Source: Bacillota bacterium (lineage in GTDB: Bacteria > Bacillota > SHA-98 > Ch115). From it: DNA of 64,000 nucleotides. The translations under genes and the position numbers were made by a program. Location: assembly GCA_013178415.1 (NCBI GenBank), contig JABLXA010000010.1, forward strand, positions 26,815 through 90,814, read 5' to 3'. The notes beneath the pieces are model-generated. The model did not search any database. It saw nothing but the letters and a program-made list of their open reading frames with translations, and was not told the DNA's origin. Shown in pieces: positions 9,747 to 61,255 of this stretch (position 1 is the first letter of the stretch; every line of letters starts with the position of its first letter).

Positions 9747-10596
9747 AAGGAGGATCAGGCAGGCGAGGGTTGCGTGCGGCTTGTCCATGCGTGAGCTTGC
9801 TGGTAAGATCGGCGTGTCGCCCACAGCGATTGCTAAGTATGAACACAATGAAATCTTGCCGCGTCCGTCCGTGCTGCTCGTCTTGCCCGTGCACTCGGAG
9901 TGGATACCGGTTATTTCTTCCGCAGGATGCAGGTGGAGCTGTGTGCTCCTGCATACCGTAGACATGCTCGCTTCCCCATCAAGATTCAGCATTCCATCGA
10001 AGCCATCGTGGCGAACGTGCTGGAGAACTACTTGACGGTTGAATCTCTATTCCCCGAGGGAAAGCGTGTCCAGTTTGATGTGCGGCTCGATCCTGTGGTC
10101 TCGGTTGACGAGGCCGAGAAGGCGGCGGAGTCCTACGCATCTTGACCTAGATGAATTAATGATCTTGAAACAGGAATACGGGGTAAGTATGCAAGCATGG
10201 GCGAGACGCGCTTACGATCTGGGCGTCATCTCTCAATACGTTTACAGGAAGACCTGCCAGGAGTTTAGCAGGATGGGATGGCGTAAAGAAGAGCCCGGAG
10301 ATCAATTACCAGAGGAATCGCCTCTCAGGATTCTCCTCCTGGTTCGTCAGGCGCTAGCCGAGAACCTTGTCTCCAAGGCGACGGCGAATGAGTTGCTTGG
10401 GAAAGAGCCCCGCAAGAGAGTTAGAGCCTCCGAGAAGAGGCTTCGCGCCGCGGCCGACAGCCTAGCTACGAAATATGAGTCCGATAGGGACCTTGTGCAC
10501 TTCAGTGTGGCTGACGATCCCGAGTTCGACAGTGACAAGGCACAAAGAGGATGGAGATCGATCCGAGGGCGAGATACCGCCCGGCCTATTCATTAG
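9747..10596 (+). pseudogene. HTH_XRE-ImmA/IrrE protein with deleted protease core
   Basis: Remains of a COG2856-type regulator/metalloprotease. An XRE helix-turn-helix is readable (GRRIRQARVACGLSMREL..., VSPTAIAKYEHNE). A one-base shift near 9880 leads into RLARALGVDTGYFFRRMQ and the linker as far as VVSVDEAEKAAESYAS. The sequence then jumps to the C-terminal helices (LDLDELMILKQEYGVSMQAW...ISQYVYRKTCQEFSRMGWRK). The whole HExxH peptidase segment between them is missing. The last part is an open frame of about 150 codons but lacks the catalytic core. Confidence 0.6.
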
Positions 10597-10630
10597 TCAG
10601 AATCCTAACTTAAGAATAGATGCTGGAATT

Positions 10631-12493
10631 TTACATCTCCCGCTGCCGCCGGAGCCATTCCAATACAGGGTCGCGGCCTTCGCGGATGTCCCGCATGGTG
10701 GCGGAGATAGGGACGTCCGGGTAGAGCGCGTCCGCTGGGTCGCGGGCCGGGTCGGGCCGGACGAAGCGGGTGGTGGAGACGTTGAAAGCCCAGCCGGTGT
10801 TGGGTGTCCTGAAATTCAGGATGTCACCATATTCGCTGGGCGTCCCGCCGGTGGGAGTACCGACTACCTGGGCCAGATGGTTGTCGGAGAGGAGCGCAGC
10901 GAAGTCCACGGCAGAGCTGAATGAATGCCACGAGGTCAGGACGTATACCTGGCCCCGGAACAGCTGGTTCGCGCGCGCCCGCGGCTGGATGGGATAAGGG
11001 AACCACCGCCCGTTGAAAAAGGTCTGGCTTAAGAATGTGAGTACGCTCAACCAGAAGCTGCGCTGTTGGGCCAATTGCGGCGAAAAGCGTGTCCACCGGG
11101 ATACGGCGCGCAGGTTGCTATAGGGCAGGTATTTTAGAAAGGCGCTTACCACCATGGAATTGCCGCCGCCGTTGCGTCGGAGATCGATAGCGACACTCTG
11201 GATGTCGTCCTTTTGGACGGCAGCGAAAAACTCATCTACGGCTTGGCGGTAGGCCTTCGTATTATCGCACCTATCCAGCCAAAAAAGACCATATTCTGCT
11301 GAGCGGTCCACAGTCCAGCCGAACCAGGGACGTGGTTCGGCCGCCGGGACCCCGCCGGATGCCACGCCGATCACGTATACCGTCTCGGGAGCGCCGGGAT
11401 CACGCCGGGGGATGGGATGGACGGTGAACGTAAGCCGCTGCCCCCGCCGGAGCACTTCGAGGTGGATAGCGCGGCCCTGGCTCCCGCATTCCTGGATGGC
11501 GCGGCCAAGGTCGTCAGTGGAAAGAACCGGCGCACCTTCTACCTTCAAGATCCGGTCGCCCGGCCGAAGACCAGCTTCTGCTGCAGGGGAAGATGTGCGC
11601 CCCGTGGCGGCATCGGTGTCTTCCACGGTCTGGGTGATAGTCAGTCCATCCCATATTGGGATCCGGGCGCTAATGTTAGTGCCGGTGCTGGCGCTGGCAG
11701 TTGTGCCGTCGGTAGCGGTGACCCCAGCGCTGGCGGCGGCGTCGGACGGAGCTCGCCGGGATACCACAGGGTGGGGACGGCGGACAACCATGTGAACGGT
11801 CTCCCCTCCGGCGCCCTGCTCTCGCTCCCGCTCCCGCTTCTGCCCCTGCTCTTGCTCTTGCTCTTGCTCCTGCACCAAGCCCAGGCCTTGCAGGACTATG
11901 CCGTTCCCTAAGTATTGGCCGCCTACGGCTTTGACCCAATACAGATTCCCATGGGGGATCCAGGCACTGAGCTCTGTCAACAACTGCTCAGGCGTGCGAC
12001 CGCCCAGGCTGACCAGCTCATCCCCTGGACGCACAGGAAGGGTGGGGTCGAGGACCTGGGTGACCACGATCCCGTCTTCGGCCCAGGTCAGGCCCACCGG
12101 AAGCAACCCTGCGTCAGGGGGCCAGAGAATGGTGTGTGCATCCTGCAGGGAAGAGACTAGGGCATTAGCCAGGGCGAAAAACCTCCATGCTGATAAGGGC
12201 TGCTGTAGCTGCGCTTTCATAGCACCGGCGCGTGCCGCGAATTCATCACGTGCAAAGCGGCTGGTCAGGGCGGGGTGGACTTGCTGTATGACCGAGGTAA
12301 TATAACTCAGGTCCTCCAGCATCTCTTGAGGCTGCAGCAACTCCTTGCCTGGCAACGATGTCTCCCCAGGAGTAGCCGCAGTTGCAGGGGACGTTGCCGT
12401 CCGCAGGCCCGCCGGCAGGCCTGCCACCACCAACAGTAACGTCAGTGGGAGAGCCAGGATCCAAACTTTAAGCCGTAACCAGCTTGGGTTCAA
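10631..12493 (-). CDS. S41 family C-terminal processing peptidase with PDZ domain
   Basis: A 620-residue exported serine protease. The TTG at 12493 is preceded by GGAGG. Residues 8-40 form a hydrophobic signal/anchor, followed by an S41 N-terminal helical domain. The PDZ domain is around residues 290-360 (SPAAEAGLRPGDRILKVEG). The catalytic domain holds VAIDLRRNGGGNS and SWHSFSSAVDFAALL, where the nucleophilic Ser is expected. A Gln-Glu tandem stretch (VQEQEQEQEQ, about residue 208) and an Ala/Thr-rich linker interrupt the middle, so this is a loosely organised member. It would act outside the membrane. No operon partner is evident. Confidence 0.8.
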   Translation of the reverse strand: MNPSWLRLKVWILALPLTLLLVVAGLPAGLRTATSPATAATPGETSLPGKELLQPQEMLEDLSYITSVIQQVHPALTSRFARDEFAARAGAMKAQLQQPLSAWRFFALANALVSSLQDAHTILWPPDAGLLPVGLTWAEDGIVVTQVLDPTLPVRPGDELVSLGGRTPEQLLTELSAWIPHGNLYWVKAVGGQYLGNGIVLQGLGLVQEQEQEQEQGQKREREREQGAGGETVHMVVRRPHPVVSRRAPSDAAASAGVTATDGTTASASTGTNISARIPIWDGLTITQTVEDTDAATGRTSSPAAEAGLRPGDRILKVEGAPVLSTDDLGRAIQECGSQGRAIHLEVLRRGQRLTFTVHPIPRRDPGAPETVYVIGVASGGVPAAEPRPWFGWTVDRSAEYGLFWLDRCDNTKAYRQAVDEFFAAVQKDDIQSVAIDLRRNGGGNSMVVSAFLKYLPYSNLRAVSRWTRFSPQLAQQRSFWLSVLTFLSQTFFNGRWFPYPIQPRARANQLFRGQVYVLTSWHSFSSAVDFAALLSDNHLAQVVGTPTGGTPSEYGDILNFRTPNTGWAFNVSTTRFVRPDPARDPADALYPDVPISATMRDIREGRDPVLEWLRRQREM

Positions 12494-53079: not shown

Positions 53080-54300
53080 TTACGAGTGAGTGGCGGTATG
53101 GGGAGTGGCGGCATTCGGATTGGTTTTTGGGTTTGGCGCCGGATAGAGGGTAAGGATGAATTCTTCACCGGAGACCTCTAATCTTGGTTCGCGTGCGCCT
53201 GCCATGCGCATTTCTTTGAGGATCATAGGGATTCCTCTTCCCAGCCGCTCGATATAACCTAGATTCTGCATATAACGCAGGAGCTGAGGATTCCGCGCAA
53301 AAGAAACACCGATCTTCATCTTTTCGATTGTCACGGTATTGGGCAGCCGGCCGGGGCTGTGAAACTCTACCCGGTCGTCGAAGACCAGAACCCGGATTTG
53401 AGATCCGGCGATGCTGTAGTTCCGGTGAACCACGGCATTGACAACGGCTTCACGTAGCACCTTGGCCGGGTAGGGCTGATGATCGATTCTGCGTGTGCCT
53501 GCGAAATAGACAGGGGTTGGTACGCCTACTCTGATCCTTTCTACAGTCTTATCTACGACGTCAGGCAATCGCCCATTAATGACCGTCCGGTCCACAAGTT
53601 CATCCGCTAGCGTTATTCCGCGGATGCGTGCCACCGTTAACCCGCTTTGCGGCAGGTTTACTTCGGGACGAAGGCCAAAAAGGAGCAAACCTCCCACTGT
53701 AGCCACGATGCTCTTGGTCGTTTCCTCGCGGATCAGAATGCTTGCATTGATGAGAATTCTTTCGGTGGATTCAGGTTCGGCAAAGGGATCGAAATCGTGA
53801 AAGCGTTGGAAATAGTCGGCGACGGCATAACGGTCAATATCCGCGATAGATGTGCCAAGAACGGGTGTTTCATCGTAGGTGACCATCCCGGAGCTCTGAA
53901 AAAGCCGGCTTAGTTCTTCGCGCGTTGCCTCTCTTTTCTGGCTTCCTACACGAACGTAATAGTGGCCGGTGCTGCTTTGATAGGGTGCTACTACCCCTTT
54001 AGGGATGGTCAACACGGCTATATCCTTATGATCAGGGAATTTTACAATCTCAAAACCAGGAATAACCCCGGGGATAACTCCAGTTCGACAAATATTCAGG
54101 CACCACTCTTCCAGATCATGACGCGTTAGCCCCACTCGCTGACCATGATCATCCACGCCCAAAAGGATTCGTCCGCCTTCGGTGTTGGCGAAAGCGACGA
54201 TTTCTTCGGCAAGATGATGGGGCAATATGCGATCTTCCTTGAATTCAACATAGGAATTCTCCCCGGCTTCGATCATCTCTTCCAGTTCTGCGCGTGTCAT
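53080..54300 (-). CDS. AlbA_2 / HATPase_c_4 (RecG C-terminal-like) protein
   Basis: A 406-residue protein: the N-terminal AlbA_2 domain (ENSYVEFKEDRILPHHLAEE, IVAFANTEGGRILLGVDDHG), then a second domain (KVLREAVVNAVVHRNYSIAG, VEFHSPGRLPNTVTIEKMKI, GYIERLGRGIPMILKEMRMA) of the COG2865 type. A low-complexity Asn/Thr/Pro tail ends it. Such proteins are predicted transcriptional regulators or nucleic-acid binders, common in defence neighbourhoods. It lacks the winged-helix extension of the homologue at 26.7 kb. It begins at ATG 54300 and looks intact. Confidence 0.85.
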   Translation of the reverse strand: MTRAELEEMIEAGENSYVEFKEDRILPHHLAEEIVAFANTEGGRILLGVDDHGQRVGLTRHDLEEWCLNICRTGVIPGVIPGFEIVKFPDHKDIAVLTIPKGVVAPYQSSTGHYYVRVGSQKREATREELSRLFQSSGMVTYDETPVLGTSIADIDRYAVADYFQRFHDFDPFAEPESTERILINASILIREETTKSIVATVGGLLLFGLRPEVNLPQSGLTVARIRGITLADELVDRTVINGRLPDVVDKTVERIRVGVPTPVYFAGTRRIDHQPYPAKVLREAVVNAVVHRNYSIAGSQIRVLVFDDRVEFHSPGRLPNTVTIEKMKIGVSFARNPQLLRYMQNLGYIERLGRGIPMILKEMRMAGAREPRLEVSGEEFILTLYPAPNPKTNPNAATPHTATHS

Positions 54301-54668: not shown

Positions 54669-56096
54669 ATGAAGAGGTGGACCTGGGGGTCCGTCAGGGG
54701 CCCCGGGATGTTCCATGTGACGATAGACCCGGAAGGGCCGGGGGTGCTTCGACTTCACCTCAGGCGCGCTGGGGGCTCGAGGCGTTCGATGCTCGCCGCC
54801 CTCAGCGGGCGGCCCAGGAACCTTCTCTGGATCAACGGCAGCCAGCTCCTGCTCCTGGACGAGAGCAACGCCGACACAGTACAAGCCCTCATCGAGGTCG
54901 CCCACGAGCGCACTCGGCCGGGGCGCGAGGTGTCGGAGGAGACCTGGCTCGACGTCAAGCGAGAGACGGCGCGGCGGGTGCACCGGCTTTACCCCCGCGT
55001 GCCCGTTGACGAGATAGAGGGCGATATCGATTACCTGTATGGACTTGTCGTGGAGCTCTCGCGGGGGGCGTGCCCCAGCGAACGGGGCGTCCCGGGGCGC
55101 AGCATGGCCGGGGCCGAGTGGCAGGCGCCTGCGCGCATGGACCTCATGGTCTCGTCTATGGGCGGCTCGGGCTGCCAGAACGCGTGTGCCTGGTGCTATG
55201 CCTCGGATATGCCAGAGGTCCGCGAGCTCGACACCGCCTCATGGAAGCAGGTGATCGACCGGCTGTGGGACGCGGGGATACCGATGGTGAATTTCACCGG
55301 CGGCGAGCCGACGATGCGGCCCGACCTCGTGGAGCTCGTGCGCTATGCTGAGAGATTTGTCACCGGTCTCATCACGAATGGCAGGGCGCTCGCAGGGCTC
55401 GTGGGCAAGCTGAAGACGGCGAGCCTGGACTACATCCAGGTGAGCATCGAGTCGGCGGATAGGGACGTTCACGATGCGATCGTGGGCTCTAAAGGGGCGT
55501 GGGAAGAGACCGTCCGCGGCATCAGGGCCGCGCTGGATGCGGGCATGTACGTCTCTACAAACACCACGTTGACGCGGGCGAATGCAAAAGGGTTCCCCAA
55601 CCTGCTGCGCTTCCTCGCGGGCGCCGGCGTGAGATATGTGGGCTGCAATGCGCTGATCCCCGCCGGGCGCGGCGCGAGGCATCCCGACGCGCTCGAGGCC
55701 CCTGAGCTCAAGGCTCTCCTCACCGGGGCCATGGTGGTCGCGGGCGAGCTGGACCTCGAGTTAAGCTGGTTCACACCTACATGCTATAAAGACCTCGATC
55801 CGGTGGCACTCGATCTCGGGGCGAAATCGTGCTCGGCATGCCATACCAACATGGCGGTGAGGCCTGACGGCGTGGTTGTGCCGTGCCAGTCGTGGTTGCA
55901 CGATGAGGGGCTCGGCAACATCCTCACGACGTCCTGGAAGCGCATATTCAACCACCCGCTCGCCCGCAAGATCAGGGCCCACGGCTTTGCGCCCCAGGAG
56001 TGCAGGAAATGCGAGCATTTCGCCGTCTGCGGCGGGGCCTGCCCATTGGAGGAGTTAAATCGGCGTGGGACGGGTAACAGGAGGGGGATAAGATGA
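54669..56096 (+). CDS. radical SAM/SPASM protein next to Cys-rich membrane protein
   Basis: A 475-residue enzyme. About 130 N-terminal residues form a small alpha/beta region (FHVTIDPEGPGVLRLHLRRA..., LLLLDESNADTVQALIEVAH), possibly a PqqD-like peptide-binding module. The radical SAM core has CX3CX2C (Cys169, Cys173, Cys176 in GCQNACAWCYASD) and NFTGGEPTMRPDL. The C-terminus is SPASM: CSACHTNMAVRPDGVVVPCQ and CRKCEHFAVCGGACP. ATG at 54669 is used, but ATG 54708 (MFHVTIDPEG) may be the real start. Its stop overlaps the next ATG (ATGA at 56093-56096), so it is translationally coupled to the Cys-Ala-tailed protein, its likely substrate or partner. Confidence 0.88.
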   Translation: MKRWTWGSVRGPGMFHVTIDPEGPGVLRLHLRRAGGSRRSMLAALSGRPRNLLWINGSQLLLLDESNADTVQALIEVAHERTRPGREVSEETWLDVKRETARRVHRLYPRVPVDEIEGDIDYLYGLVVELSRGACPSERGVPGRSMAGAEWQAPARMDLMVSSMGGSGCQNACAWCYASDMPEVRELDTASWKQVIDRLWDAGIPMVNFTGGEPTMRPDLVELVRYAERFVTGLITNGRALAGLVGKLKTASLDYIQVSIESADRDVHDAIVGSKGAWEETVRGIRAALDAGMYVSTNTTLTRANAKGFPNLLRFLAGAGVRYVGCNALIPAGRGARHPDALEAPELKALLTGAMVVAGELDLELSWFTPTCYKDLDPVALDLGAKSCSACHTNMAVRPDGVVVPCQSWLHDEGLGNILTTSWKRIFNHPLARKIRAHGFAPQECRKCEHFAVCGGACPLEELNRRGTGNRRGIR

Positions 56097-57337
56097 GGCA
56101 GACGTTTCCCCGGACACTTCCCGTCATGGCGTTAGTGGGCCTCCTCCTATGCCTTGCGGTCGCGACGGCGGCCGGCCCTGTCGCCGCTCCGGTCTATGCA
56201 TCGGGGGACACTGGCACATACAGGATACTCAATTATGTCGTGACCATCGAGCCCCAGCCGGACGGGAGCTGGATAGCCGGCTACTCCCAGGAGTGGAAGG
56301 TGACCGGCGGGCATATCCCGTGGGTCACGGTAGGGCTTCCGGATTATAACTATAGCATCCTTTCGCAGGGGGGCGCCGCATCCCGGGTCTCGCGCGCCGA
56401 TTATGGCTCATGGAGCGGGGTCCGCGTTGATCTCGACCGCGATTATAGGAGCGGCGAAACCTTCAGGTTCAATTTTCAGGTGAAACAGGACGGCATGGGG
56501 CGCCGGAGAGGCGACGCGGTCGAATTTGCGTTTGTCCCCGGGTGGTATGACCGGGCCGAGACCGACAGGCTCGAGGTGCGGCTCAAGAACCCCGGGAGCC
56601 CTGAGGCTCTGCTGCACACCTCGCCGGAGCCGACCGAGAGGACGACCGGCGGGGAGGTGGTCTGGATCGCCCGCCTGGGTCGGGGTGAGCGCTTCAAGGT
56701 CGCGTTCGCATTCTCACCCGAGCTCTTCCCGGGCGTCAAGGCGCGGGCCGGTGGGACGGGGCCTTCTGACGCGGGCGGTGACATGCGCCCCGGCGGTGCC
56801 CCTATGGTATCATCTGTGATGCCGGCGGTCATCTTCATCGGAATCATAGTGTTCCTCATAGTCTTCGTAAGCCTCATCGCCCTCGCCAGCCTTGTCCGTC
56901 GCGGCGGCTACAAGGGCAGGCGCGGGATTTATTACGGCACTTATTTCCCAATCCCGCCGGTGGGTAGGTCCCCGTGGGGATCAGGGTCATCCCAACCTCG
57001 GGGCGGCATGGGCTCGCCCGGAGGCTCGCGCAACTCGAACGACTCGCGCAAGTCCGGCGGTGGGGGTGGATTTGGGGGGAGGGCCATCGGGTGCGCCTGC
57101 GTGTCGTGCGCATGTGCATGCGTCTCATGCGCTTGCGCCTGCGCGTGCGCTGGCGGCGGCGGGGCAGGCTGCGCGCGGAAGTTCGATGGCGCCCGCCCTA
57201 CCCACCCAGTCCACCCGGTGCGCCCAGTGCGCCCGGCGGCGCCGATGGAGCGCACTGCAAGCACGGGAGCTAGAGTGAACACCGACGTGAAGGTGCGGGC
57301 CAGGACGGAGACGGGATCAGGCGAGGGTCGGGAGTAA
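56093..57337 (+). CDS. membrane protein with ten-Cys Cys-Ala repeat tail
   Basis: A 414-residue protein: a signal peptide (LPVMALVGLLLCLAVATAAG), a DUF2207-like extracytoplasmic beta domain (about 40-220), a membrane helix (PAVIFIGIIVFLIVFVSLIA, about 242-265), then a Gly/Ser-rich stretch ending GGGGGFGGRAIG. The Cys block is residues 334-360: Cys at 334, 336, 339, 341, 343, 346, 348, 350, 352 and 360, alternating with Ala or Val-Ser. A Pro/Val/His-rich tail follows. Such a dense alternating Cys block beside a radical SAM/SPASM enzyme suggests thioether or other Cys modification; that is inference. AGGAGGGGG precedes the ATG. Confidence 0.82.
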   Translation: MRQTFPRTLPVMALVGLLLCLAVATAAGPVAAPVYASGDTGTYRILNYVVTIEPQPDGSWIAGYSQEWKVTGGHIPWVTVGLPDYNYSILSQGGAASRVSRADYGSWSGVRVDLDRDYRSGETFRFNFQVKQDGMGRRRGDAVEFAFVPGWYDRAETDRLEVRLKNPGSPEALLHTSPEPTERTTGGEVVWIARLGRGERFKVAFAFSPELFPGVKARAGGTGPSDAGGDMRPGGAPMVSSVMPAVIFIGIIVFLIVFVSLIALASLVRRGGYKGRRGIYYGTYFPIPPVGRSPWGSGSSQPRGGMGSPGGSRNSNDSRKSGGGGGFGGRAIGCACVSCACACVSCACACACAGGGGAGCARKFDGARPTHPVHPVRPVRPAAPMERTASTGARVNTDVKVRARTETGSGEGRE

Positions 57338-57352
57338 TGACCGGAGGGAGTG

Positions 57353-58096
57353 ATGGCGATGCCGGTGCCTCTAGCGATGCCAGCGATTCGCCGCCAGGGA
57401 GGTTCGCCACCTACCACCGGAGGCTCGCTGCCTATCACCGGCGCAGCTCCCCGAGGGGACGCATGGGCAGCCGGCCGGAGGCATGGGGACCGGTGGGGCT
57501 GGCGCATGCATATAGTGCGCAGCCTGCTGGTGGCAATGCTGTGCCTGGCGGTGCTGTCGGTCACGGCAGGATGCCGCCCTGGCGCCGTCACATCCGATCG
57601 GCCGCGCGGCGAAAGGCCATACGATGAGAATGTCGAGGTTCCCCCAGGCGATCCGGCCTTCCCGAGGTTGGGCCGGTACTGGGTGGTTGATCCAGAAGGT
57701 CTCGTGGGGCTCCGCGCCGTTCAGGCGGCGGACGAAACCCTGGAGGCCCTCAGGGCGGATGGTCTCGCTGAGACGGTCATAGTCATCCGGCGTGGGGTGA
57801 AGCACCCGGTGGAGTGGTCCACCCATTACGGCCGCTGGCTCATGCTGGGGGAGCGCGAAGGCCCGCGCAGGAACAACGGGCTGGTCTTCCTCATCGTTCC
57901 TGATGCCCGCCCTGAGGCGGGGCGGGTCTGGTATAGCGTCGGGCGCGGGCTTCCGAGACTCACCTCATCCGACCTCGGCCCGCTTCTCGAGGAGGCGGCT
58001 TCGTATGCGAACGCGGACGATTTCGACGGGGCTGTGGTTTCTATCGCAAGAAACATTGATGATATCCTTCGCAAGATCTATCGTAAATCATCATAA
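57353..58096 (+). CDS. TPM-domain exported protein
   Basis: A 247-residue protein. GGAGGG (57343-57348) favours the start at 57353, but a second start at 57506 would begin directly with the signal peptide (MHIVRSLLVAMLCLAVLSVT) and a TAGC lipobox-like site. The rest is a TPM domain (YWVVDPEGLVGLRAVQAADE, NNGLVFLIVPDARPEAGRVW, LGPLLEEAASYANADDFDGA). TPM-domain proteins are exported or membrane-bound and often encoded with LemA, as here. The 50 residues before the signal peptide are Pro/Gly/Arg-rich and may not be translated. Confidence 0.78.
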   Translation: MAMPVPLAMPAIRRQGGSPPTTGGSLPITGAAPRGDAWAAGRRHGDRWGWRMHIVRSLLVAMLCLAVLSVTAGCRPGAVTSDRPRGERPYDENVEVPPGDPAFPRLGRYWVVDPEGLVGLRAVQAADETLEALRADGLAETVIVIRRGVKHPVEWSTHYGRWLMLGEREGPRRNNGLVFLIVPDARPEAGRVWYSVGRGLPRLTSSDLGPLLEEAASYANADDFDGAVVSIARNIDDILRKIYRKSS

Positions 58097-58165
58097 ATCG
58101 TGAGATGTGGGGCTCCATAAGATTCCAAATATAAGATTTAAATGTAAGGTTTATGGGAGGGGAGA

Positions 58166-58804
58166 ATGTTGAGAAGGGGATACCTCATTGGAATCGCAGG
58201 CCTGATCGTCGTGGTGCTGATTGTCCTCATGGGGTTTTCGTGGGTCATGGGGATCCAGAGGAATATGGTCAGGCTCCAGCAGGGCGTGCTTGCGCAGGAG
58301 GGGCGATACGGCGCGGCGCTCGAGACCTTGAGCGAGAAGATCAAGGGAATCTGGTCAATAGAGAAGGATTTCCTGGAGCATGAGAAGGACACTCTTACGG
58401 GCGTCATAAGGGAGCGCGCCGCGGCACTAAACCGCGCCGGAGAGGAATTCGCGGCGGCGACCGCCGAAGGCGACCCGCAGAAGACCATCCAGGCCGCGAC
58501 GCGATTCCGCGAGGCGGCCGAGGGGCTTGCGCTCTCGGTCAATGTGAACGCGCTTCGCGAGGCCTACCCGCAGCTATTCTCCCCGCCGATCGTGCAGCAG
58601 ACCATGCGCGGGCTGGAGGAAGCGGTAAACGAGATCCGCACCGCGCTCGACGACTGGCAGGTGGCCATCAGGAACTATAATACCTTCAGATCGCAGTGGC
58701 CGCAGAGCTTCGTCGGAGGAGCCCTGAACTTCCCGGCCTCGTATGATTATTACAAGTCCGAGAAGGCGAAGCTCAACATGGATGAGCTGATGCCGAGGGG
58801 TTAA
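58166..58804 (+). CDS. LemA family protein
   Basis: A 212-residue protein: one N-terminal membrane helix (YLIGIAGLIVVVLIVLMGFS), then the antiparallel helical LemA core (MGIQRNMVRLQQGVLAQEGR, YGAALETLSEKIKG...AIRNYNTFRSQWPQSF) ending in PASYDYY, the usual LemA finish. GGGAGGGGAG stands before the ATG. It is the last gene of the radical SAM/Cys-tail/TPM operon. LemA proteins scaffold envelope processes; a link to Cys-tail maturation or display is possible but unproven. Confidence 0.85.
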   Translation: MLRRGYLIGIAGLIVVVLIVLMGFSWVMGIQRNMVRLQQGVLAQEGRYGAALETLSEKIKGIWSIEKDFLEHEKDTLTGVIRERAAALNRAGEEFAAATAEGDPQKTIQAATRFREAAEGLALSVNVNALREAYPQLFSPPIVQQTMRGLEEAVNEIRTALDDWQVAIRNYNTFRSQWPQSFVGGALNFPASYDYYKSEKAKLNMDELMPRG

Positions 58805-59295: not shown

Positions 59296-59433
59296 TTATC
59301 ATTTGCTGCAGAAAATTCTGGCGCACCTATCTATGCAGGCAGCACAGGAGAGCCGCAGGCCAAAACCCGGTTCTCCTTTTCATTTTTCACCTGCGTTTCA
59401 TGGCGCGGTGTGCGAAAGCGAGGCTCAGGTAAG

Positions 59434-60417
59434 ATGCAGGCAGCGTTGGAATGTATAAATGCGAGAAAGGTGTTCTACGTAAAGAAGGGGGTGAAAACAG
59501 AATCAAAACCCTCTGCCGAGTGGCGTGCGGCGTCCGGTGAGAACGGCAGGTTCCCCGGCCGTCTGCCTCTCCCTCGGGTCATAACCACCCTGTTTTCCAC
59601 GAGTGTGCCGGTGGAGGCTGTGGCCGGAGTGACGTTCGAGGTCGGGCGCGGGGAGATTTTTGGCATTCTGGGGCCAAATGGATCGGGCAAGTCGACGCTC
59701 ATCAGGCTCATATCTACATTGCTCCTGCCCGACGAGGGCGAGATCAGGGTCTTCGGCCACGACGTGGTGCGCGAGAGATTCGCCGTGCGCCGCCTGATAA
59801 ACCGCGTTTCTGTTGAGGCCGCGTTTTTCAAAAAGCTCTCGGCCATGGAGAACCTGAGCTACGCTGCAAGGCTCTATGATCTTGACATCCGCGAGGCGCG
59901 AAAGACCGCCATCCATATCCTGGATCGCCTCGGGTTCAGCGAGAACAAGGTATATGAGCCGCTCGAGGACCTGTCCCGGGGGATGCAGCAAAAGGTGGCT
60001 GTCGCGCGGGCTCTCCTGACCTCTCCGCTGCTGCTCCTCCTCGACGAGCCAACCACAGGCCTTGATCCCGTATCGAAAAGGGAGGTTCAGGATTACGTCC
60101 TCGAAGTGAGGGAGGCGCGTGGTACCACCGTGATCCTGACCACTCACGACATGCAGGAGGCAGACAGGTTGTGCGACAGGGTAGCAATCATCGATCAGGG
60201 CAGGTTCGTTGCACTGGACACGCCAGCCCGGCTCAAGGCGGGGCTTTCGGTAAGTCTTTCGACAAATGGCGGCAAGACCGCAAATAGCGGCGGGACTGCA
60301 GATAATGGCGGAGTTGTAAATAGTAGCGAGACTGTAACCCTGGAGAATGTGTTCTTTGTCCTTACCGGAAGGGAGTTAAGGGAATTCAACCTGGGAAAGG
60401 GGGATCACGGTGATTGA
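59434..60417 (+). CDS. ABC transporter ATP-binding protein
   Basis: A 327-residue ABC-2 exporter ATPase. Walker A is GPNGSGKST (residues 80-88), signature LSRGMQQK, Walker B LLLLDEP, switch His in TTHDMQ. An unusual insert of about 35 residues (KTESKPSAEWRAASGENGRF...) separates the first strands. A Gly/Asn-rich stretch (NGGKTANSGGTADNGGVVNS) precedes the last helix. ATG at 59434 is chosen from homology; the frame opens at a GTG at 59410. It overlaps the permease gene by 8 bp. Confidence 0.85.
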   Translation: MQAALECINARKVFYVKKGVKTESKPSAEWRAASGENGRFPGRLPLPRVITTLFSTSVPVEAVAGVTFEVGRGEIFGILGPNGSGKSTLIRLISTLLLPDEGEIRVFGHDVVRERFAVRRLINRVSVEAAFFKKLSAMENLSYAARLYDLDIREARKTAIHILDRLGFSENKVYEPLEDLSRGMQQKVAVARALLTSPLLLLLDEPTTGLDPVSKREVQDYVLEVREARGTTVILTTHDMQEADRLCDRVAIIDQGRFVALDTPARLKAGLSVSLSTNGGKTANSGGTADNGGVVNSSETVTLENVFFVLTGRELREFNLGKGDHGD

Positions 60418-61255
60418 GTTTGTGAGGGAGGTGCGGAGGGGCTACGCCCTCGTCGAGCGGAATTTCAACCTCATCAAGAGGTATATAGGCTGGGAGATTG
60501 TATTCCTCATATACACGGTTGTGAACACTCTCACGATAGCATTCATAGGCGTGAACCCCGCCACCGGCGGGAGCGGGAGCGGGGGTTGGAGCGGAGGCGG
60601 GGGCGGGGGTGGCGACAGGGTCCTCTACCTCGTCGTGGGGGCGCTTCTCTGGGGGTTTCTTTCGGTCCTATTCCATGAAGTGGCCGAATCTGTGCAGTGG
60701 GAGCGCTGGGAGGGGACTATCGAATATTCCTTTATGGCCCCCATGAAGCGCCTGTCTTATCTCGGCGGGGTGTGCCTCTACGCGGCGACCTATGGAGCAG
60801 TGAGGACTATCATCGTCATGCTGGCCGTCGTGTCCCTGTTTAAGCTAGACCTCGGTAGTGCCAATCTGGGGGCGGCGTTTGTGGTGCTGCTCCTCTCCAG
60901 TTTATCCTTCATTGGGGTTGGGTTGATGGCTGCGGTGCTGCCGCTCCTATCCCCGGAGAAAGGCTCGCAGGCCGCGCATATCCTCGAGGCCGCGATCCTG
61001 CTGGTCTCGGGGGTCTATTACGAGGTCGATGTGTTGCCGGGGTGGCTCCAGCCACTCTCACGTCTATCGCCGGCCACATATACTCTGCGAGCTGCGCGGG
61101 CGGCTCTGCTTCGTAACGCCTCCTTCCGCGACATCGGGGGCGACCTCATGTTGCTCCTTGTCATCGGGGTGGTGCTCATACCCCTGGGGCTCAAGGTATT
61201 CAACTGGGGCGAGCTTCACGCGATGCGCACGGGCAAGCTCAAGAGAAGCGGTTGA
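60410..61255 (+). CDS. ABC-2 type permease
   Basis: A 281-residue membrane protein with about six helices (IVFLIYTVVNTLTIAFIGVN, YLVVGALLWGFLSVLFHEVA, VIGVVLIPLGLKVFNWGELH) and the ABC-2 pattern around PGWLQPLSRLSPATYTLRAA. A Gly/Ser-rich loop (GGSGSGGWSGGGGGGG) lies after the first helix. GTG start inside the end of the ATPase gene. Together they form an exporter of unknown substrate. Its position 1.6 kb after the Cys-tail operon makes a role in that system possible, but a promoter and hairpins separate them. Confidence 0.84.
   Translation: MIEFVREVRRGYALVERNFNLIKRYIGWEIVFLIYTVVNTLTIAFIGVNPATGGSGSGGWSGGGGGGGDRVLYLVVGALLWGFLSVLFHEVAESVQWERWEGTIEYSFMAPMKRLSYLGGVCLYAATYGAVRTIIVMLAVVSLFKLDLGSANLGAAFVVLLLSSLSFIGVGLMAAVLPLLSPEKGSQAAHILEAAILLVSGVYYEVDVLPGWLQPLSRLSPATYTLRAARAALLRNASFRDIGGDLMLLLVIGVVLIPLGLKVFNWGELHAMRTGKLKRSG

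Follow-up and report, generated by a model that had tools for sequence, protein, structure and literature searches.

The closest described relatives of the system analysed here are the sactisynthase SkfB and the enzymes CteB and SuiB, which, in the parts of the sources available, share a predicted RiPP recognition element (RRE; RiPP, ribosomally synthesised and post-translationally modified peptide), a radical SAM core, a SPASM or Twitch end and Cys-containing substrates. The substrates of these enzymes are short precursor peptides. In the present study we have analysed a 64,000-nt stretch of DNA from a Bacillota bacterium, hereafter the window, in which an operon at positions 54669-58804 couples a radical SAM/SPASM enzyme to a membrane protein of 414 aa, whose Cys-rich tail is the presumed substrate. 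A short precursor peptide beside the enzyme, the hallmark of sactipeptide and ranthipeptide loci, was not found in this operon, where the neighbour of the enzyme is the 414-aa membrane protein.

The membrane protein resembles the DUF2207 family (PF09972), described in the text seen as having an outer N-terminal domain, a transmembrane (TM) segment and an inner Gly-rich C-terminus (PMC10457818); the homology is remote. Ordinary DUF2207 members differ in that they end in a Gly run with a Trp and do not lie beside the enzyme. LemA-DUF2207 gene pairs are mentioned in print, with no radical SAM enzyme or Cys tail in the portion of that text seen (PMC12631010). We found neither an NCBIfam equivalog for the whole system nor a paper on it in the open-licence literature; 77 NCBIfam families matched the window enzyme, and all 25 among the matches listed lay below their curated cut-offs. 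The ACGX system (TIGR04340) also has a radical SAM/SPASM enzyme, and its name suggests Ala-Cys repeats like those of the Ala-Cys-His-Ser tails described below. However, TIGR04340 is absent among the same 25 matches, and the enzyme of L219, a locus with such a tail, scores 107.2 bits against a cut-off of 400.

Linkage of the enzyme and the Cys tail

An earlier note on this DNA had reported an ATGA overlap between the enzyme and tail genes and ten Cys within residues 334-360, and both proved exact (positions 334, 336, 339, 341, 343, 346, 348, 350, 352 and 360; Table 1). The enzyme contains the two features of the radical SAM/SPASM family, the CxxxCxxC motif and the Cys of an auxiliary cluster. 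It matches Radical_SAM PF04055 (7.4e-25, residues 167-315) and SPASM PF13186 (7.9e-10, residues 388-449), both over the cut-off, and C169, C173, C176, C388, C406 and C458 are invariant in an alignment of 39 rows.

The pair was followed from both sides. Starting from the enzyme, five taxon samples gave 76 enzyme genes of the clade, 63 of them with a Cys-periodic tail protein within a few genes, 10 cut off at contig ends and 3 without a tail; six of the 76 were known beforehand (the window and five genomes first met via their tails), and the other 70 divide into 57, 10 and 3. Sample (i), 149 relatives queried with the window enzyme protein (E<=1e-60), gave 16 enzyme genes, 14 with the tail and 2 cut by a contig end inside the tail protein. 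Samples (ii)-(v) were queried with the enzyme profile A2 at the same threshold. The phylum of a Krumholzibacteriia genome (ii, 80 genomes) gave 6 genes, 5 with the tail and 1 at a contig end; that of an Eggerthellaceae genome (iii, 198 genomes) gave 4, 3 with the tail and 1 broken without it; that of L091, an Armatimonadetes record (iv, 201 genomes), gave 40, 31 with the tail, 7 contig-limited and 2 without, where the 31 take in L194 (tail in a shifted frame) and L222 (tail visible just at the contig edge). In the phylum of an archaeal record (v, 194 genomes) the tail lies beside all 10 enzyme genes. Sample (i) is the cleanest of the five, because 9 of the 39 rows of profile A2 come from loci found through their tails.

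Starting from the tail, the tail-protein profile was run against genome contigs and matched at least 63 loci, among which clostridia are over-represented. Among the 63 listed, 60 hold the enzyme (some cut by the contig edge), and two (L079 and L080) are contig-limited. Thus, the condition that the earlier note had named as fatal to its proposal, namely Cys-tailed proteins regularly found without the enzyme, did not materialise: only 1 of the 61 evaluable loci lacks it. In the 149 relatives all 12 tail proteins adjoin an enzyme. A codon-pattern DNA search of 249 genomes returned 18 places, 9 of them judged to be spurious low-complexity frames; eight of the 9 real tails have the enzyme and one lies at a contig edge, although this search is not independent, since 8 of the 9, going by contig number and position, seem to come from genomes already in the set of 149. 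In L046, L051, L064 and L069 a single enzyme gene is surrounded by two or three Cys-tail genes.

As a control, the window's genome contains 31 radical-SAM matches, 30 of them over the Pfam cut-off. The 30 other matches gave 28 stretches reaching about 3 kb to either side (less at contig ends), and in none of the 28 was the strict Cys-periodic pattern present; a looser rule of five Cys in 20 residues was satisfied in two, one of which reads as an Fe-S-binding end and the other as a stray frame.

The coupling proposed in the earlier note therefore stands: enzyme and tail form a near-strict pair in several phyla, bacterial as well as archaeal, and the comparison of sequences strongly supports the extension of this coupling far beyond the window. 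That the two genes are mere neighbours which do not act on each other is highly improbable. Vertical inheritance does keep genes together in close relatives, and one genome has the tail and no enzyme; nevertheless the pair persists over phyla and domains while other neighbours turn over, and the enzyme gene precedes the tail gene in some groups and follows it in others. Across the 63 tail-found loci listed, no protein but these two is widely shared.

The tail and its scaffold

The Cys pattern is no accident of one sequence. The homologue search returned 1037 tail-protein homologues at E<=1e-3, and the tail is nearly invariant among the 120 matches listed, in a search that works by shared words and favours tail-bearing relatives. 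The tails of L003-L006 are identical in residues to that of the window while 12-17 of their 81 nucleotides differ, and therefore selection acts on the residues. The same identity under synonymous codon changes rules out repeat slippage or a wrong frame as the origin of the tail.

In the model the tail protein is a predicted beta-sandwich with one TM helix. In the window protein the net charge around the helix is -1 before and +5 after it, and in 3 of the 7 relatives with a complete operon the TPM protein shares a reading frame with the tail protein. Fusion to TPM and the charge bias together point to a predicted cytosolic tail, which we consider very likely; for this reason display of the tail, as envisaged in the earlier note, is unlikely. 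A zinc-ribbon sequence lies between the TM helix and the tail in L036:9911-11434 and L035:7201-8511, a further hint of a cytosolic position.

The likeness to DUF2207 suggested in the earlier note holds at a distance. The window protein has no Pfam or NCBIfam family match and thus does not reach the PF09972 cut-off, while L219, a remote tailed relative, passes it (32.5 against 24.4 bits) and the profiles of the tailed scaffolds match one another (hhalign probability 70.8-100). With these matches the idea of a tail wholly independent of its scaffold was dropped, and one scaffold superfamily with enzyme-matched tails appears a fair statement.

Ordinary DUF2207 proteins provide a comparison. The 201 genomes of sample (iv) hold 62 DUF2207 matches, of which 2 adjoin the enzyme and 60 do not; 54 of the 60 sit in genomes without an enzyme match. 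In a subset of 20 retrieved from the 60, 17 proteins finish with a Gly-rich run and a Trp and one with a Gly run and a Phe; another extends past its stretch, and the last contains masked letters. None of the 20 exceeds 3 Cys in 30 residues. In each of the genomes G731, G879, G151 and G814 both forms are present: the Cys-tailed protein lies near the enzyme, and a paralogue with a Gly run lies elsewhere.

Four tail grammars were distinguished. Three are Cys-Ala tails, one followed by a GC..K block (the window type, clostridia and some archaea), one ending in GGCT and one in GGGR; the fourth consists of Ala-Cys-His-Ser repeats. The last, unlike that of the window, occurs on DUF2207-like proteins beside enzymes of the same clade in L218-L221 and L223-L228 (for example L219:4106-5773). 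On a quick tree of 116 enzymes, in which a tail type was assigned for 103 and sample (v), the archaeal set, is represented by L036 alone, the tail types require 3 changes, which is the minimum possible and was equalled in none of 200 shuffles. Enzyme tree and tail grammar thus agree exactly for all four types.

Many loci of the L091 phylum (L191, L195-L198, L201, L203, L204 and L215) carry a second protein, similar to the enzyme, encoded between enzyme and tail. CxxxCxxC is missing from the whole open frame in 19 of 20 copies, and the remaining copy (L215) forms the rear part of a fusion whose enzyme half does have the motif. This protein is probably a pseudo-enzyme partner.

Proposed mechanism

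The AlphaFold2 model of the enzyme (pLDDT 87) aligns structurally over residues 9-468 with SuiB and 29-460 with SkfB, N-terminal parts included. We propose that the enzyme would use its predicted N-terminal RRE to dock on the DUF2207-like membrane protein encoded by the following gene, possibly at the conserved stretch after the TM helix, which reads YKGRRGIYYG in the window, and would then cross-link the Cys of the predicted cytosolic Cys-Ala tail by radical chemistry, probably as thioethers in which the Cys sulfur is bonded to a carbon atom in a neighbouring residue. Once modified, the tail would stand where ordinary DUF2207 proteins have their Gly run, and in the window operon it may work with TPM and LemA in envelope maintenance. 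We give this reading as a whole a probability of about 0.55, and its parts differ in strength. Action of the enzyme on the tail is likely. Thioethers are slightly favoured, since a sactisynthase is among the best matches and the Ala alpha-carbon is a known acceptor in ruminococcin C1, in the part of the source seen (PMC8172795). The envelope role is more tentative and is suggested by association, with the acid and peroxide sensitivity of a Streptococcus mutans DUF2207 mutant, as given in the part seen of PMC10457818, and with the LemA-DUF2207 pairs.

Several points weigh against this proposal. The modification of the tail is itself something that we infer, and the RRE is seen solely in the predicted model, which aligns with a root-mean-square deviation of 5.7 (SuiB) and 7.1 (SkfB); the N-terminal domain gave no Pfam match at the sequence level. 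Remote homology also links the tailed scaffolds in their N-terminal domains, so that what the enzyme recognises or modifies might lie outside the tail, and the Cys-Ala stretch itself is hydrophobic. Furthermore, L068 (tail 10007-10813) has no enzyme in its genome at E<=1e-15, L202 and L217 carry the enzyme with no tail seen, and L231 is a broken pair. The tail protein of L068 may be an orphan or come from an incomplete assembly.

Alternatively, the tail might be a free thiol array that binds a metal or Fe-S cluster or senses redox, with the enzyme making a minor change or helping to load it. Ten close Cys suit metal binding, and the zinc-ribbon sequences of L035 and L036 and the peroxide sensitivity of the mutant mentioned above agree with it. 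We regard this as unlikely, as such an array alone leaves unexplained why a radical SAM enzyme bearing an RRE-like domain is linked to it and why the tail type tracks the enzyme tree. Less probable still, the enzyme might alter the tail differently, for instance by epimerising every second residue. A little below this we place release of the modified tail as a peptide, with the membrane protein as its oversized precursor: several groups do have the tail at the very C-terminus, behind a Gly run, whereas the window-type tail precedes a conserved block, the fused forms continue into TPM, and no conserved peptidase or exporter turned up in the 63 tail-found loci listed.

Cross-linking of a resident tail thus remains the preferred reading. 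In its widest form, to which we give rather less credence than to the mechanism itself, an unnamed pan-prokaryotic system of RRE-guided radical SAM enzymes, with a pseudo-enzyme partner in one phylum, might staple the periodic Cys tails, of the form (Cys-Ala)n or (Ala-Cys-His-Ser)n, that DUF2207-like membrane proteins would carry on their cytosolic side, giving a membrane-anchored cross-linked or redox-/metal-active element instead of a poly-glycine tail. Related RRE-bearing maturases act on short peptides, whereas here the presumed substrate is part of a resident membrane protein; if true, RiPP-type chemistry would be carried into the cell envelope in bacteria and archaea. Paralogues of the same genome that differ in tail and in enzyme linkage make clean tests possible.

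TPM, LemA and other neighbouring genes

Table 1. Features of the operon and its flanks, in window positions
Feature	Position	Strand	Basis
Schlafen/AlbA_2 gene before the operon	53080-54300	-	
Radical SAM/SPASM enzyme, 475 aa	54669..56096	+	Pfam PF04055 and SPASM
Predicted RRE-like N-terminal domain, enzyme residues 13-131	54705..55061	+	Strands and three helices in model
CxxxCxxC motif, C169 C173 C176	55173..55196	+	Invariant in 39 aligned relatives
Cys-tailed, DUF2207-like membrane protein, 414 aa	56093..57337	+	Homologues; predicted beta-sandwich and one TM helix
TM helix, residues 244-270, then basic stretch	56822..56902	+	Model; charge
Cys-Ala tail, residues 334-360, ten Cys	57092..57172	+	Nearly invariant among relatives
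TPM-domain protein, probably a lipoprotein	57350..58096, start codon uncertain	+	PF04536 6.8e-8
LemA-family protein	58166..58804	+	PF04011 1.1e-13
ABC transporter pair after the operon	59410-61255	+	

The window operon is a row of four genes, enzyme, tail protein, TPM and LemA. Wider flanks were fetched for 8 of the 16 enzyme-bearing genomes found among the 149 relatives; the order is kept in all eight and the four genes are complete in seven, while in the eighth, L281, the contig stops inside TPM. The flanking ATPase, AlbA_2 and ABC genes were considered as parts of the system and rejected, as none of them recurs beside the operon in these eight; one weak ABC match lies about 5 kb from the operon in L277.

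By phmmer with the window proteins, a survey in which flank lengths differ and remote homologues may escape, TPM or TPM with LemA was detected beside the pair only in L018-L026, L031-L034, L138, L143 and L232-L234, and LemA alone in L225 and L226. Both went undetected beside most other enzyme-tail pairs, and we rejected them as required partners; the need for their help to the tail, suggested in the earlier note, was not borne out, and they look like accessory genes. Other neighbours were noticed by eye near some enzymes of the Ala-Cys-His-Ser type: a shared protein of about 400 aa in L217, L221, L222 and L228, and a sugar-transferase-like protein in L217, L221 and L222.
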